Assembly (NCBI RefSeq): GCF_003285545.1
Contig: NZ_QLNV01000003.1
Location: 1-64,000 of the forward strand
Source of the DNA: Sinomicrobium soli
GTDB taxonomy: Bacteria > Bacteroidota > Bacteroidia > Flavobacteriales > Flavobacteriaceae
Reading direction: 5' to 3'
DNA: 64,000 nt
Shown here: positions 24,596 through 28,694 of the stretch, piece after piece
Layout: every line of letters starts with the position of its first letter
Numbering within the stretch: position 1 is the stretch's first letter
The notes under the pieces: generated by a model
The model's database searches: none
Told to the model about the DNA's origin: nothing
The model's input: the letters and a program-made list of their open reading frames with translations, nothing else
Translations under genes and position numbers: made by a program

Positions 24596-25981
24596 ATGAA
24601 AAAGTTTATCGGTTTACTTTTCGTATCCATACTCGGTGGTTTTATAACCCTCGGGATCTACAGGGCTTTTTTTGAAAAAGAGCAGGTTGTCGTGGAACAG
24701 CGTACAACCACGCCCAATTTTGTCACGGCAAGTTATGACGCTTCTCCCCTGGCTGCAGCCGAGACCACGGATTTTACCGGTGCGGCGGAAAAGACGATCC
24801 ACGCTGTGGTTCACGTTACCAACCGCATGACCAGCAAGGCCCCCACAAGCTTCCAGGACCTTTTCTTCGGAGGAGGGCGCGAACGCACCCAGGTGGGAAC
24901 AGGTTCGGGGGTCATTATTTCTCCGGACGGGTATATCGTGACCAATAACCACGTTATAGACGGCGCCACGGAACTGTCGGTAACACTGAACAACAATAAG
25001 ACCTACGACGCAGAACTCATAGGTTCCGACCCCTCTACCGATATTGCACTGATCAAGGTGGATACGGATGAAGACCTCCCCTACCTGGCTTTCGGGGATT
25101 CCGACAATGCCAGGGTAGGCGAATGGGTACTGGCCGTGGGTAACCCCTTCAACCTGACCTCCACCGTAACCGCAGGGATCATCAGTGCCAAATCGAGAGA
25201 CCTCAGCGGTAGTAACAGCCAATCGTTCATACAGACGGATGCTGCCGTAAACCCCGGAAACAGCGGCGGTGCCCTGGTAAACAGCAGGGGCGACCTCATC
25301 GGTATCAACACCGCCATTACCTCGCGCACGGGTACCTATATCGGCTATGCCTTTGCCGTGCCCAGTAATATCGCCAAAAAAGTGGTAGAAGACCTTCTGG
25401 AATACGGCAATGTACAGAAGGGACTGCTCGGGGTTTCCATTATACAGAAAAATTCGCCCTATGCCGTTGAAAACGGGATCAACGAGATCGAAGGATTGTA
25501 TGTCGGTGGTGTGGAAGAAGATTCGGGTGCCGAAAAAGCAGGTATAGGAGAAGGCGATATCATTAAAAGTGTAGACGAGATCAAGATAAACAAGTTTGCC
25601 GACCTCACCGGTTACCTGAATTCAAAACGCCCCGGAAATACGGTTCAGCTGACCATCGAAAGGGACGGGAAAACAAAAACAGTACCGGTCACCCTCAGCA
25701 AGATCAATTCGTATACGCTGAACGAACTGGGCATACAGGTCAAAAACATTTCAGACAAGGACAGGAAGCAGTACCGTACCGATCACGGGGTAAAGATCAC
25801 CCGTACGGCACCGTATCTCAACAATGCCAACCTGGAAGGCAGGATACTGGTAGAGATCAACGGCAAGAAGATCCGGAACGGGGAAGATGCCGAGAAAATA
25901 GTTTCCGAAATAAACCCCAACGAAAGAAATGTTATTGTGATCCTCAACGAAAAAGGGGAAGCAGAGAGGTATTTGTTCTAA
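24596..25981 (+). CDS. DegP/DegQ-like serine protease (HtrA family)
   Basis: 461 residues. One N-terminal hydrophobic segment (4-21) exports or anchors it in the periplasm. The trypsin-like domain has the complete triad His119 (TNNHVIDGA), Asp149 (STDIALIK) and Ser223 (NPGNSGGAL). A first PDZ domain spans about 275-365, and the C-terminal 80 residues form a divergent second PDZ. It degrades or refolds damaged envelope proteins. It has its own leader and terminator, but a 157-bp mobile element sits between its stop codon and that terminator. Heat- or envelope-stress control is likely for the family but not visible here. Confidence 0.95.
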   Translation: MKKFIGLLFVSILGGFITLGIYRAFFEKEQVVVEQRTTTPNFVTASYDASPLAAAETTDFTGAAEKTIHAVVHVTNRMTSKAPTSFQDLFFGGGRERTQVGTGSGVIISPDGYIVTNNHVIDGATELSVTLNNNKTYDAELIGSDPSTDIALIKVDTDEDLPYLAFGDSDNARVGEWVLAVGNPFNLTSTVTAGIISAKSRDLSGSNSQSFIQTDAAVNPGNSGGALVNSRGDLIGINTAITSRTGTYIGYAFAVPSNIAKKVVEDLLEYGNVQKGLLGVSIIQKNSPYAVENGINEIEGLYVGGVEEDSGAEKAGIGEGDIIKSVDEIKINKFADLTGYLNSKRPGNTVQLTIERDGKTKTVPVTLSKINSYTLNELGIQVKNISDKDRKQYRTDHGVKITRTAPYLNNANLEGRILVEINGKKIRNGEDAEKIVSEINPNERNVIVILNEKGEAERYLF

Positions 25982-25996
25982 AACACAGCCCTCAGA

Positions 25997-26153
25997 GCTT
26001 GTTTAAACTAATTCCAATTGGCTGCAAAATGATCTTTTTACCCCATATTTCATCTTTTTCTTGCTCCATAGCTATGGCTATGCAGCGCAAAAAAGCCTTC
26101 ATCTGGGGCAGAAATCTCTATTTTTCGCTACAATCAAATCAATTTAAACAAGC
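25997..26153. mobile_element. MITE-like palindromic element with flanking direct repeat
   Basis: The 157-bp element has perfect 11-bp terminal inverted repeats, GCTTGTTTAAA (25997-26007) and TTTAAACAAGC (26143-26153). It is flanked by a direct repeat CCTCAGA (25990-25996 and 26154-26160), extendable to AGCCCTCAGA if the shared AGC is counted. The arms are imperfectly complementary along their whole length around a core CCATAGCTATGG, so the RNA would fold into one long hairpin. It has no coding capacity. These are the marks of a non-autonomous transposable element with target duplication. It sits between the htrA stop and terminator. Confidence 0.75.
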
Positions 26154-26168
26154 CCTCAGAACGAGATC

Positions 26169-26197
26169 AGCGGCGGGAAGTTCCCGCCGCTTTTTTT
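26169..26197 (+). terminator. intrinsic terminator of htrA
   Basis: AGCGGCGGGAA / TTCCCGCCGCT inverted repeat (26169-26179, 26181-26191) followed by TTTTTTT. Its distance from the htrA stop would be about 25 bases without the inserted element and is now about 190. Confidence 0.85.
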
Positions 26198-26213
26198 ATG
26201 TCCCTCGAAACCG

Positions 26214-28544
26214 CTACTCCAGTATCTCCAGCCTGGCAAAACGCAGCAACAGTTTTTTCAACTGCCCGTTATCGAACTTTATCTCTGCCTTTTTATCATT
26301 CCCGGCCCCTTCGAGTTTCACGACCACCCCCCTGCCGAAACGGGTATGGGACACACGGGTTCCTACCTCGAGAGCTGCGGTAGCGGCCTGCCCGTTCCCT
26401 ACGGGAGTAGACAGCTCCGGTTTTATTTTGCGCAGTTTCCTCAACTGGTTTTCCGTGGGTTTCTGCCGGGAGGGCGGCGTACTGCCCACCGGTTTGTGCT
26501 GTCTCAGTTTACTCTTGTCCACATCGCCGAAAATATCAGCGTCAATCATGGGTTTGTAACGGTATGAACCATCCAGGGGCGGGGTCAGGTATTCCAGGTA
26601 TTTCTCCTCTATTTCCTCGATAAACCTGCTGGGTTCGGCATCGATGAGTTTCCCCCAGCGGTAACGGCTTTGCGTATAGGTCAGGAAAGCCTGTTTCTCT
26701 GCCCGGGTAAGGGCTACGTAAAACAGGCGCCGCTCCTCTTCGAGCTCACTCCGTGTATTCATGCTCATGGCCGACGGGAAGAGGTCTTCTTCCATCCCCA
26801 CTATATATACGTAAGGAAACTCCAGGCCCTTGGCCAGGTGAATGGTCATCAGTGCCACCCTGTCGTCATCCCCGGTATCGTTGTCGAGGTCGGTGGCCAG
26901 GGCCACATCTTCCAGGAATTCCGGCAGCGACCCGGTAGCCCCGTCAATTTCCTGCTGCCCTTCCACAAAATCGCGGATACCGTTGAGCAGTTCTTCCACA
27001 TTCTCCATACGCGCTATCCCTTCCGGGGTACCGTCTTTCTTGAATTCGTGCAGCAGTCCCGTTTTCTTGGCCACGTGTTCTGCAAGCACAAAGGCATCTG
27101 CAGTCTGCGCCGTTACCTGAAAACTCTGTATCATGGTCACAAAATCCTCCAGTTTCCTTCGGGTACCTGCATTGATCTTGAGATCTATCCTGTCCAGGTG
27201 CTGTATCACTTCAAAAATGGAGCGTTTATAGTGATTGGCCGCTACGGTAAGCCGTTCCATCGTGGTCTGCCCTATACCCCTGGCCGGGTAGTTGATCACC
27301 CTGTTCAGGGCCTCTTCATCCTGCGGGTTGATAACAAGCCGCAGATAGGCCAGTACGTCCTTGATCTCCTTGCGCTGGTAAAACGACAACCCGCCGTAAA
27401 TGCGGTAGGGAATATCCCTTTTCCGAAGGGCATCCTCTATGGCCCTCGACTGGGAGTTGGTGCGGTACAATACGGCAAAATGATTGTTGGGCAACTGTTC
27501 CTGCATCCTGAGCTCAAAAATAGAACCCGCTACAAACCTGCCCTCTTCCGCATCGGTAATGCTGCGGTGCACCTTTATCTTTCCCCCGTCTTCATTGGCG
27601 GTCCACACCACTTTTTCGAGCCTGGTCTGGTTTTTCTCGATCACCGAGTTTGCCGCTTCCACGATATTTTTGGTGGAACGGTAATTCTGTTCCAGCCGGT
27701 ATACCTCCACCCCGTCGTAATCGCGCTGGAAGTTCATGATATTACTGATATTCGCCCCGCGGAACGCATAAATACTCTGGGCATCGTCGCCCACTACACA
27801 TATATTCTGGAACTTATCGCTCAGTGCCTTGACGATCAGGTACTGCGAATGATTGGTATCCTGGTACTCATCGACCAGGATATACCGGAAACGCTCCTGG
27901 TATTTGGCCAGCACTTCCGGAAAACGCGTAAGCAGTTCGTTGGTCTTTAGCAGCAGGTCGTCAAAATCCATGGCTCCGGCTTTAAAACAACGCTCCACAT
28001 AAGCCGCGTAGATCTCCCCCATCCTCGGCCTTTTGGCCATGGCATCGGCTTCCACCAGGTCGGGATTGTTAAAATAGGCCTTGACCGTGATCAGGCTGTT
28101 CTTATACGACGATATCCTGTTCTGTACCTGCTTGTACTTGTATACATCCTTGTCCAGTCCCATTTCCTTGATGATGGCATTGATAAGCCGCTGGGAGTCC
28201 TGGGTGTCGTAGATGGTAAAATTGCCGGGATATCCCAGTTTGTCTGCTTCGAAACGCAGTATCCTGGCAAAAACGGAGTGGAAAGTACCCATCCACAGAT
28301 TCTTTGCTTCACTGTTCCCTACTATACCGGCAATACGGGCCTTCATTTCACGCGCGGCCTTATTCGTAAACGTCAGCGCCAGGATATTAAAGGCATCGAC
28401 CCCCTTGTGCATGAGGTAGGCGATACGATAGGTAAGCACCCGGGTTTTACCTGATCCGGCACCGGCAATGACCATCAGGGGGCCTTCCAGATGTAATACG
28501 GGAGCCCTCTGGGCCTCATTCAGTTCTGCTAAGTAATTTTCCAC
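26214..28544 (-). CDS. UvrD/PcrA-type ATP-dependent DNA helicase
   Basis: 776 residues from the GTG at 28544, chosen because homologues begin (M)ENYL.ELNEAQ; an in-frame TTG 13 codons earlier would add PVRVIYLKRNSK. Walker A is AGAGSGKT (27-34), motif II DEYQDTNHSQY, motif III GDDAQSIYAFRGA, motif IV EQNYRSTKNI, and motif V/VI MTIHLAKGLEFPYV and ALTRAEKQ. The C-terminal tail (from about 650) ends with a Tudor-like PcrA module (RVSHTRFGRGVVVKLEG). It is a 3'-5' helicase of nucleotide excision repair and replication-fork or recombination control. Transcribed convergently with htrA, no operon partner. Confidence 0.95.
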   Translation of the reverse strand: MENYLAELNEAQRAPVLHLEGPLMVIAGAGSGKTRVLTYRIAYLMHKGVDAFNILALTFTNKAAREMKARIAGIVGNSEAKNLWMGTFHSVFARILRFEADKLGYPGNFTIYDTQDSQRLINAIIKEMGLDKDVYKYKQVQNRISSYKNSLITVKAYFNNPDLVEADAMAKRPRMGEIYAAYVERCFKAGAMDFDDLLLKTNELLTRFPEVLAKYQERFRYILVDEYQDTNHSQYLIVKALSDKFQNICVVGDDAQSIYAFRGANISNIMNFQRDYDGVEVYRLEQNYRSTKNIVEAANSVIEKNQTRLEKVVWTANEDGGKIKVHRSITDAEEGRFVAGSIFELRMQEQLPNNHFAVLYRTNSQSRAIEDALRKRDIPYRIYGGLSFYQRKEIKDVLAYLRLVINPQDEEALNRVINYPARGIGQTTMERLTVAANHYKRSIFEVIQHLDRIDLKINAGTRRKLEDFVTMIQSFQVTAQTADAFVLAEHVAKKTGLLHEFKKDGTPEGIARMENVEELLNGIRDFVEGQQEIDGATGSLPEFLEDVALATDLDNDTGDDDRVALMTIHLAKGLEFPYVYIVGMEEDLFPSAMSMNTRSELEEERRLFYVALTRAEKQAFLTYTQSRYRWGKLIDAEPSRFIEEIEEKYLEYLTPPLDGSYRYKPMIDADIFGDVDKSKLRQHKPVGSTPPSRQKPTENQLRKLRKIKPELSTPVGNGQAATAALEVGTRVSHTRFGRGVVVKLEGAGNDKKAEIKFDNGQLKKLLLRFARLEILE

Positions 28545-28694
28545 CTTGCTGTTTCTTTTCAAATATATGACTCTCACCGGCAAATATAAGAATACTGCCC
28601 AGGTTTTGTTACCGTCTTTAACAAATGATATGCTCCTGCCTCTTGATTATTACGCCTGCTTTCACGAAGTTTGCCGGTACGCTAACAACAATCT

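Follow-up and report, generated by a model that had tools for sequence, protein, structure and literature searches.

Among the closest described systems, ISLrh of the IS1031 group is presented in the accessible part of its report as an element of 857 bp with 17-bp ends (GAACCTGTCTAGTATCT), a TNA target and orfA and orfB in two overlapping frames (PMC12016507). The Correia/NEMIS elements of Neisseria are, in the available portions of two accounts, MITEs of ~107 and 155 bp that give hairpin transcripts subject to RNase III processing (PMC2229807, PMC10969869). In Streptococcus pneumoniae, RUP, BOX and SPRITE appear in the available text as proposed MITEs with strong folding, of which BOX is modular and RUP has ends resembling those of an IS (PMC3049150). 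Within Bacteroidota, the consulted portion of one report describes MITECca01 of Cardinium, a 240-bp, IS982-derived element said to be unique to one strain (PMC9769881).

The window analyzed here is the whole stretch of 64,000 nucleotides from Sinomicrobium soli (contig NZ_QLNV01000003.1, positions 1 to 64,000). On sequence grounds, the palindromic element found in it is a non-autonomous IS1031-type MITE that has inserted in the spacer between genes encoding an HtrA-like protease and a PcrA-like helicase, both identified by their Pfam domains. The features are as follows:

24596..25981, plus strand: htrA/degP-like gene for a serine protease, with the element downstream of it (ORF; Trypsin_2 and PDZ_2 domains).
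25992..25994, no strand: target duplication TCA (3 bp), left copy (from the sequence; of the 24 accepted elements that share this end type, 18 have identical TNA flanks).
25995..26155, no strand: MITE of 161 bp (boundaries from comparison with other copies).
25995..26007, plus strand: left terminal inverted repeat GAGCTTGTTTAAA (its motif GAGCYTGTTTAAA occurs exactly 14 times in the genome).
26016..26134, minus strand: conserved hairpin body (match of 119.8 bits to the covariance model R1, for which this body was itself one of the 27 building sequences, and strand test).
26067..26082, no strand: apical stem-loop CATAGC-TATG-GCTATG (sequence, folding and an apical stem kept in an alignment whose sequences were gathered in part via the apical motif itself).
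26143..26155, minus strand: right terminal inverted repeat, GGGCTTGTTTAAA on the minus strand (one change from the consensus).
26156..26158, no strand: right copy of the target duplication TCA (from the sequence).
26169..26191, plus strand: hairpin resembling an intrinsic terminator, downstream of htrA (its T run is on the plus strand).
26214..28583, minus strand: pcrA/uvrD-like helicase gene, convergent with htrA (UvrD-helicase, UvrD_C and PcrA_UvrD_tudor domains).

The element resembles the IS1031 group of the IS5 family, as far as the latter's available descriptions go, in its 3-bp TNA duplication and its ends, which are similar to those of ISLrh and of an IS in the genome G335 (GAGCCTGTTTAAATTTT). 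Those two kinds of IS are alike in length, at about 850 bp, whereas the window element has no transposase and no such IS was found in its own genome. The present or absent internal 50-bp piece of Correia/NEMIS, as given in the available text, has a counterpart here in a module of ~55 bp (PMC2229807, PMC10969869). The Correia/NEMIS termini carry TA in these same partial accounts, unlike the TNA target of the window element. We know of no sequence relation between the two. MITECca01 is likewise an IS-derived MITE from the same phylum, but its described length of 240 bp and IS982 origin set it apart from a 161-bp element of IS1031 type. The strand-specific pair bias and the exchange of ends reported below go unmentioned for RUP, BOX and SPRITE in the part of the account available (PMC3049150).

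An earlier note, made from the letters of the window alone, had described inverted terminal repeats, an imperfect palindrome over the full length, a central CCATAGCTATGG, no coding capacity and a location between the htrA stop codon (25979-25981) and its terminator, and each of these points is borne out: the terminal repeats extend over 13 bp with one mismatch, the right end reading CAAGCCC instead of CAAGCTC, and there is no evident gene, the single crossing ORF (with a TTG start) being taken as chance. The length that it gave, 157 bp, has to be corrected to 161 bp, since the other copies have the ends GAGCYTGTTTAAA...TTTAAACARGCTC. The direct repeat of 7 (up to 10) bp that it took for the target duplication is present in its 10-bp form AGCCCTCAGA (25987-25996 and 26151-26160), but only its 3-bp TCA is duplicated target, and the remainder consists of the terminal repeats themselves (with the one change at the right end) and coincidence. 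A target duplication of 7-10 bp is ruled out by the 18 identically flanked elements, whose duplications fit a 3-bp TNA. On the minus strand, the left element junction (25987-25999) makes a terminator-like hairpin that is weak and has a short run of T.

A 191-bp query around the element recovered 38 matching stretches in its own genome, a figure that counts the element itself and also the repeated detection of a copy in parts or on its opposite strand; two other copies are near full length, with 95-96% identity. With one mismatch allowed, the end motif gives 39 matches against 5 for a reversed control pattern, and these ends are therefore, together with the 14 exact occurrences, not attributable to chance. 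R1, built from the 27 sequences of alignment A1, places the hairpin at no fewer than 22 distinct sites in this genome, the window's included, among 150 scored candidates of 2463; the other rows, of 33 in all, are these palindromes read on the opposite strand. Copies that share the ends and have target duplications of their own, which the earlier note had proposed looking for, are thus found, and so are the empty sites: with positions 25200-26900 of the window searched in 40 genomes, the htrA and pcrA ends were recovered in all five other members of the genus, and in 5/5 the spacer is without the element. In one of them (G004), the two BLAST matches are 26 bases apart, against 188 in the window, and in another (G003, contig C45, locus L100) they are separated by 713 bases of other sequence without the element. 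By eye, the extra part of this last spacer could be gene remains. When 39 loci with flanks of up to 1.5 kb were compared, only L004 and L064 had flanks that align with each other for more than 300 bases, and in these two the elements occupy different sites. BLAST with the element finds matches in 7 of 60 genomes, its own included, namely the six Sinomicrobium genomes and one from a different genus of Flavobacteriaceae; neither the element against phage and plasmid records nor the exact body pattern against viral contigs gave a match. The element is therefore noncoding and below 300 bp, with inverted repeats, a target duplication, dispersed copies and empty sites in relatives, all features of a MITE, and its standing as a non-autonomous transposon is further supported by full IS with comparable ends and target rule in other Flavobacteriales.

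The target rule was derived from elements of Sinomicrobium genomes whose ends were paired without using the flanks, which gave 56 rows; eight (L022, L036, L052 969-1185, L089, L133, L142, L162 245-342 and L166) were dropped as chance end pairings, and L064 was counted under the second end type. Of the 24 elements with GAG- or GAAACTG-type ends, 18 are flanked by identical 3-bp sequences, TNA in every case, and the other 6 are without an identical duplication; elements with GAACTC-type ends have identical flanks in 19/24, none of them TNA. Restriction to elements with an R1 body (E <=0.01) leaves identical flanks in 17/21 of the former, all TNA, and in 17/21 of the latter, none TNA. A single genus thus has the body attached to two kinds of ends, each with its own target rule (identical flanks that are TNA in 17/17 versus 0/17). 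A separate set of end calls, with identical flanks at 24 of 41 loci and no ends at three, was left out of the evidence for this rule, because identical flanks raised the score by which its ends were chosen. For the second end type (GAACTCRTCTTGA), exact pattern matches in 11 genomes included no pair at the distance of an autonomous transposon, and among the scanned loci a single pair, in L209, lies 2.5 kb apart, with flanks that do not match.

Individual loci depart from these two arrangements. Three forms with ends of the second type (L135, L138 and L156) measure 52-76 bp and are without the body, with identical 3-bp flanks in two of the three. In the genome of the window, a 30-bp palindrome of just two ends with TAA on both sides (L028 1501-1530, C38:25195-25224) represents the element in minimal or collapsed form, and a 180-bp element (L017, C11:415466-415645) with TAA flanks is a hybrid of one GAAACTG-kind and one GAGCTTG-kind end. 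In other Bacteroidota, bodies found with R1 in L220, L224 and L238 lie inside repeats starting with TACCAA, possibly a third end kind; those of L224 and L238 have identical TAA or TTA flanks.

The ends and the TNA rule match those of IS5-family IS of IS1031 type in other Flavobacteriales, which is why we classify the element as a non-autonomous MITE of this type; the mobilizing system is assigned in this way, by ends and target rule, because no partner was found in the same cell. Part of the transposase from an IS in the same genus (G003, L089), searched against 395 genomes of the order, gave matches at E <=1e-15 in eight genomes. Two of these (G335 and G348) hold at least 20 copies of an IS that is 845-859 bp long and whose ends are GAGYCTGTTTAAA, and identical TNA flanks are seen in 19 of the 20 copies scored, at most 10 per genome; the protein of a G335 copy matches NF033580 IS5_3 (186.6 bits, cut-off 110), PF13340 and PF01609. 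The IS of a third genome (L110) has similar ends with non-identical flanks (TTA/TAA), and the copies of a fourth are cut by contig ends. The only same-genus IS with similar ends that was found is that of G003, which has 928 bp, ends GAGACTGTCTAAATTTT, non-identical TTA/TAA flanks and a transposase in two overlapping frames; by analogy with ISLrh, this arrangement may be natural. The suggestion of the earlier note that the element is moved in trans by a transposase elsewhere thus holds as regards its non-autonomous nature, and similar-ended full IS do exist in other Flavobacteriales, but neither a transposase of the matching family nor a full transposon with these ends was found in its own genome: the assembly (99.7% complete, 43 contigs) has 0 matches to PF13340 and NF033580 and so no detected IS5_3/DUF4096 transposase. 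An autonomous partner could have been lost or could lie within assembly gaps, and once it is lost, its presence is not strictly required for MITE status. Two loci of the genome that match PF01609 were considered as partners and rejected, both being without such ends. The scan for terminal repeats with matching flanks found none around an intact IS5_3 copy in G001 (L246).

The body has a wider distribution than the ends. The apical-body pattern occurs in 41 stretches of the GTDB collection, from Sinomicrobium, Kordia, Arenibacter, Maribacter, Pricia, Confluentibacter, Aquimarina, Galbibacter and Croceivirga, together with Saprospiraceae bins and some records with less specific names, and 28 of the 38 loci with called ends measure 159-163 bp with several kinds of ends. 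At E <=1e-4, R1 is found in at least 9 of 395 genomes of the phylum, that of the window included, under stricter filters with up to 9 candidates scored per genome, so that misses are likely; eight of the nine have two or more copies. The ~160-bp hairpin body is sporadic across Bacteroidota. On a tree of 43 bodies, built without the ends and labeled with the end type by motif, the end type changes at least four times, with three or more of these changes forced by well-supported branches. Since the body is joined to at least two kinds of ends, it probably spreads by borrowing different transposases. The element family is known in kind but apparently undescribed as a family, as none of the literature searched, in titles and starts of abstracts, contained a description that we recognized.

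Folded as RNA, the window element is more stable than its shuffled versions on either strand (z of -7.9 on the minus and -4.5 on the plus strand, with 0 of 200 shuffles as good in either case), and the minus strand, which is opposite to the htrA mRNA, reaches -63.8 kcal/mol versus -42.2 for the plus strand; part of this difference is composition, for the shuffle energies already differ by strand (-34.0 versus -25.9). The earlier note had envisaged a hairpin in the htrA mRNA upon transcription: that strand does fold, but the better-folded and constrained strand is the opposite one. Among 75 elements, a set in which at least three loci appear twice (L181, L207 and L213 repeat L062, L073 and L067), the strand opposite htrA has the lower energy in 71 (mean -64.8 versus -49.9), and one of the four exceptions, L155, is probably turned the wrong way, as R1 matches its other strand. 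In the R1-derived set of 25 loci, the minus strand is lower in 23, with 118 G.U and 63 A.C, although R1 was built on that strand.

Because composition affects the energies, we made a strand-neutral test in which pairs were defined by Watson-Crick (WC) votes alone in 43 of the 75 elements (158-164 bp, less than 97% alike) and changes were counted by parsimony, which lessens rather than eliminates the dependence between cells of related elements. Over all 58 pairs, WC pairs changed to G.U 73 times and to A.C 36 times (p 5e-4), the reverse steps numbering 27 and 32; by column, G.U is favored in 33 and A.C in 12. The bias resides in the inner 42 pairs, with 58 changes to G.U versus 20 to A.C on the minus strand (p 2e-5), whereas the first 17 bp, comprising the terminal repeats, show none (15 versus 16), and a Fisher test between the regions, taking the inner one without the apical and loop pairs, gives p 0.012. 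In 27 diverse bodies, a 36-pair structure has 89% of its cells paired and changes on both sides in 23 pairs; its covariation score is 0.382, against 0.135 (sd 0.012) when shuffled and at most 0.155 when slid, the slid versions being disfavored in part because the structure scored was itself partly drawn from the same alignment. Covariation beyond chance and strand-specific G.U tolerance, both expected of structured RNA, are therefore present. The apical pair 77/92 runs counter to the bias, with 23 A.C cells and 0 G.U, and is the very pair at which the body search pattern had allowed exactly the A.C change; the excess of G.G cells (26) over C.C cells (2) is not explained by RNA pairing. Rfam yielded no match up to E 1 for window positions 25500-26600, and one match in five other loci, at E 0.46 and outside the element. 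Since the elements are present in both orientations relative to their neighbors, any mutational bias that follows transcription or replication should mostly average out, and it should also appear in the terminal repeats. Together, the G.U bias and the compensatory changes suggest selection on base pairing of the minus single strand, with RNA as the simplest candidate.

Our preferred reading, which we consider probable, is thus that of an IS1031-type MITE with a body of ~120 nt that is kept by pairing on one strand, would most likely act in cis and is carried by at least two kinds of ends. On a broader version, of which we are no more than evenly persuaded, the body would be a selfish RNA hairpin found phylum-wide, its RNA fold selected on one strand and inherited apart from the ends, served by at least two, and perhaps three, transposition systems that differ in target rule. 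An ordinary MITE from an IS5-type element, whose hairpin is a by-product without RNA function and whose arms are kept matched by quasi-palindrome correction through template switching, would account for the standard MITE features, and such correction at the DNA level would also produce matching changes on both arms. Yet correction predicts no strand bias, which fits the terminal repeats but not the inner arms, and the body is common to elements with different ends; we regard this explanation as unlikely. A stand-alone small RNA gene riding on the transposon, with its own promoter and an action in trans, strikes us as decidedly unlikely: the conserved apical sequence and structure speak for it, as do small RNAs from QMITE2 of Coxiella, cited in the available part of a 2024 MITE review (PMC10969869). 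Against it, a scan of 25900-26300 found no sigma-70-type promoter, although Bacteroidota promoters differ and lie outside the reach of such a scan, and the Rfam searches gave no match for the window copy and only the weak one outside the element elsewhere. G.T is tolerated better than A.C in DNA as well, and strand-specific folded DNA sites exist, such as the attC sites of integrons, so that the constrained molecule might instead be minus-strand single-stranded DNA, folded during replication, transfer or transposition; this is very improbable in our estimation, given that the ends, target duplications and related IS indicate a DDE enzyme acting on double-stranded DNA, for which a folded strand is unneeded. 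Finally, an ordinary immobile hairpin, part of the htrA terminator region and conserved by descent, would suit the position between stop codon and terminator but is contradicted by its absence from that place in all five other genus members and by copies at unrelated places with duplicated targets, which leaves it a negligible chance.

Returning to the MITE with a selected fold, we propose that an IS1031-type DDE transposase would act in trans, recognizing the GAGCYTGTTTAAA ends and placing the element at a TNA triplet, and that the folded RNA from the strand opposite htrA would be what selection maintains. At this locus, read-through from pcrA would yield the minus-strand hairpin RNA with the stronger fold, and the htrA transcript would carry the weaker one; the hairpin may therefore matter more for pcrA read-through than for the htrA mRNA. 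As its most likely mode of action, the hairpin might work in cis whenever a neighboring transcript crosses the element, in the manner reported for Correia elements and RNase III (PMC10969869, PMC2229807), and a compact block of double-stranded RNA might conceivably make the insertion tolerable or feed an RNase specific for double strands. Fifty elements have both neighbors within 400 bases, 20 of them between divergent genes, 15 between tandem genes on the minus strand, 10 between tandem genes on the plus strand and 5 between convergent genes, with strands given in the window orientation of the element and genes taken from crude ORF calls that may run open into it. In 72 rows, 46 of 62 left neighbors and 35 of 59 right neighbors point away from the element. 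The left-neighbor excess would place minus-strand RNA ahead of a gene, and we take it as a lead only.

MITE bodies are usually regarded as leftovers of IS that need just their ends. In this family, it is the body that persists, with a signature of selection on one folded strand, and the ends that are exchangeable; this strand-specific constraint and the exchange of ends are unusual. If true, the element would provide a clear bacterial example of selfish spread whose unit is itself a non-coding RNA. Comparing the inner arms, which are biased here, with the terminal repeats, which are not, is a simple test applicable to other MITE families.

Some members of the family carry further inserted pieces. 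A module of ~55 bp with a hairpin of its own (AACAGC...GCTGTT type) is inserted in either arm of elements whose ends differ (L004, L005, L011, L014 and L016 in the genome of the window, L056, and L191 and L202 in Arenibacter); by eye, it varies on both sides, and it makes forms of 215-216 bp in the genome of the window. Small palindromes of the CCTGCCTGCCGGCAGGCAGG (imperfect in L177) or CCCGATNATNATCGGG type are nested in one arm in L177, L191, L193, L195, L086 and L076.
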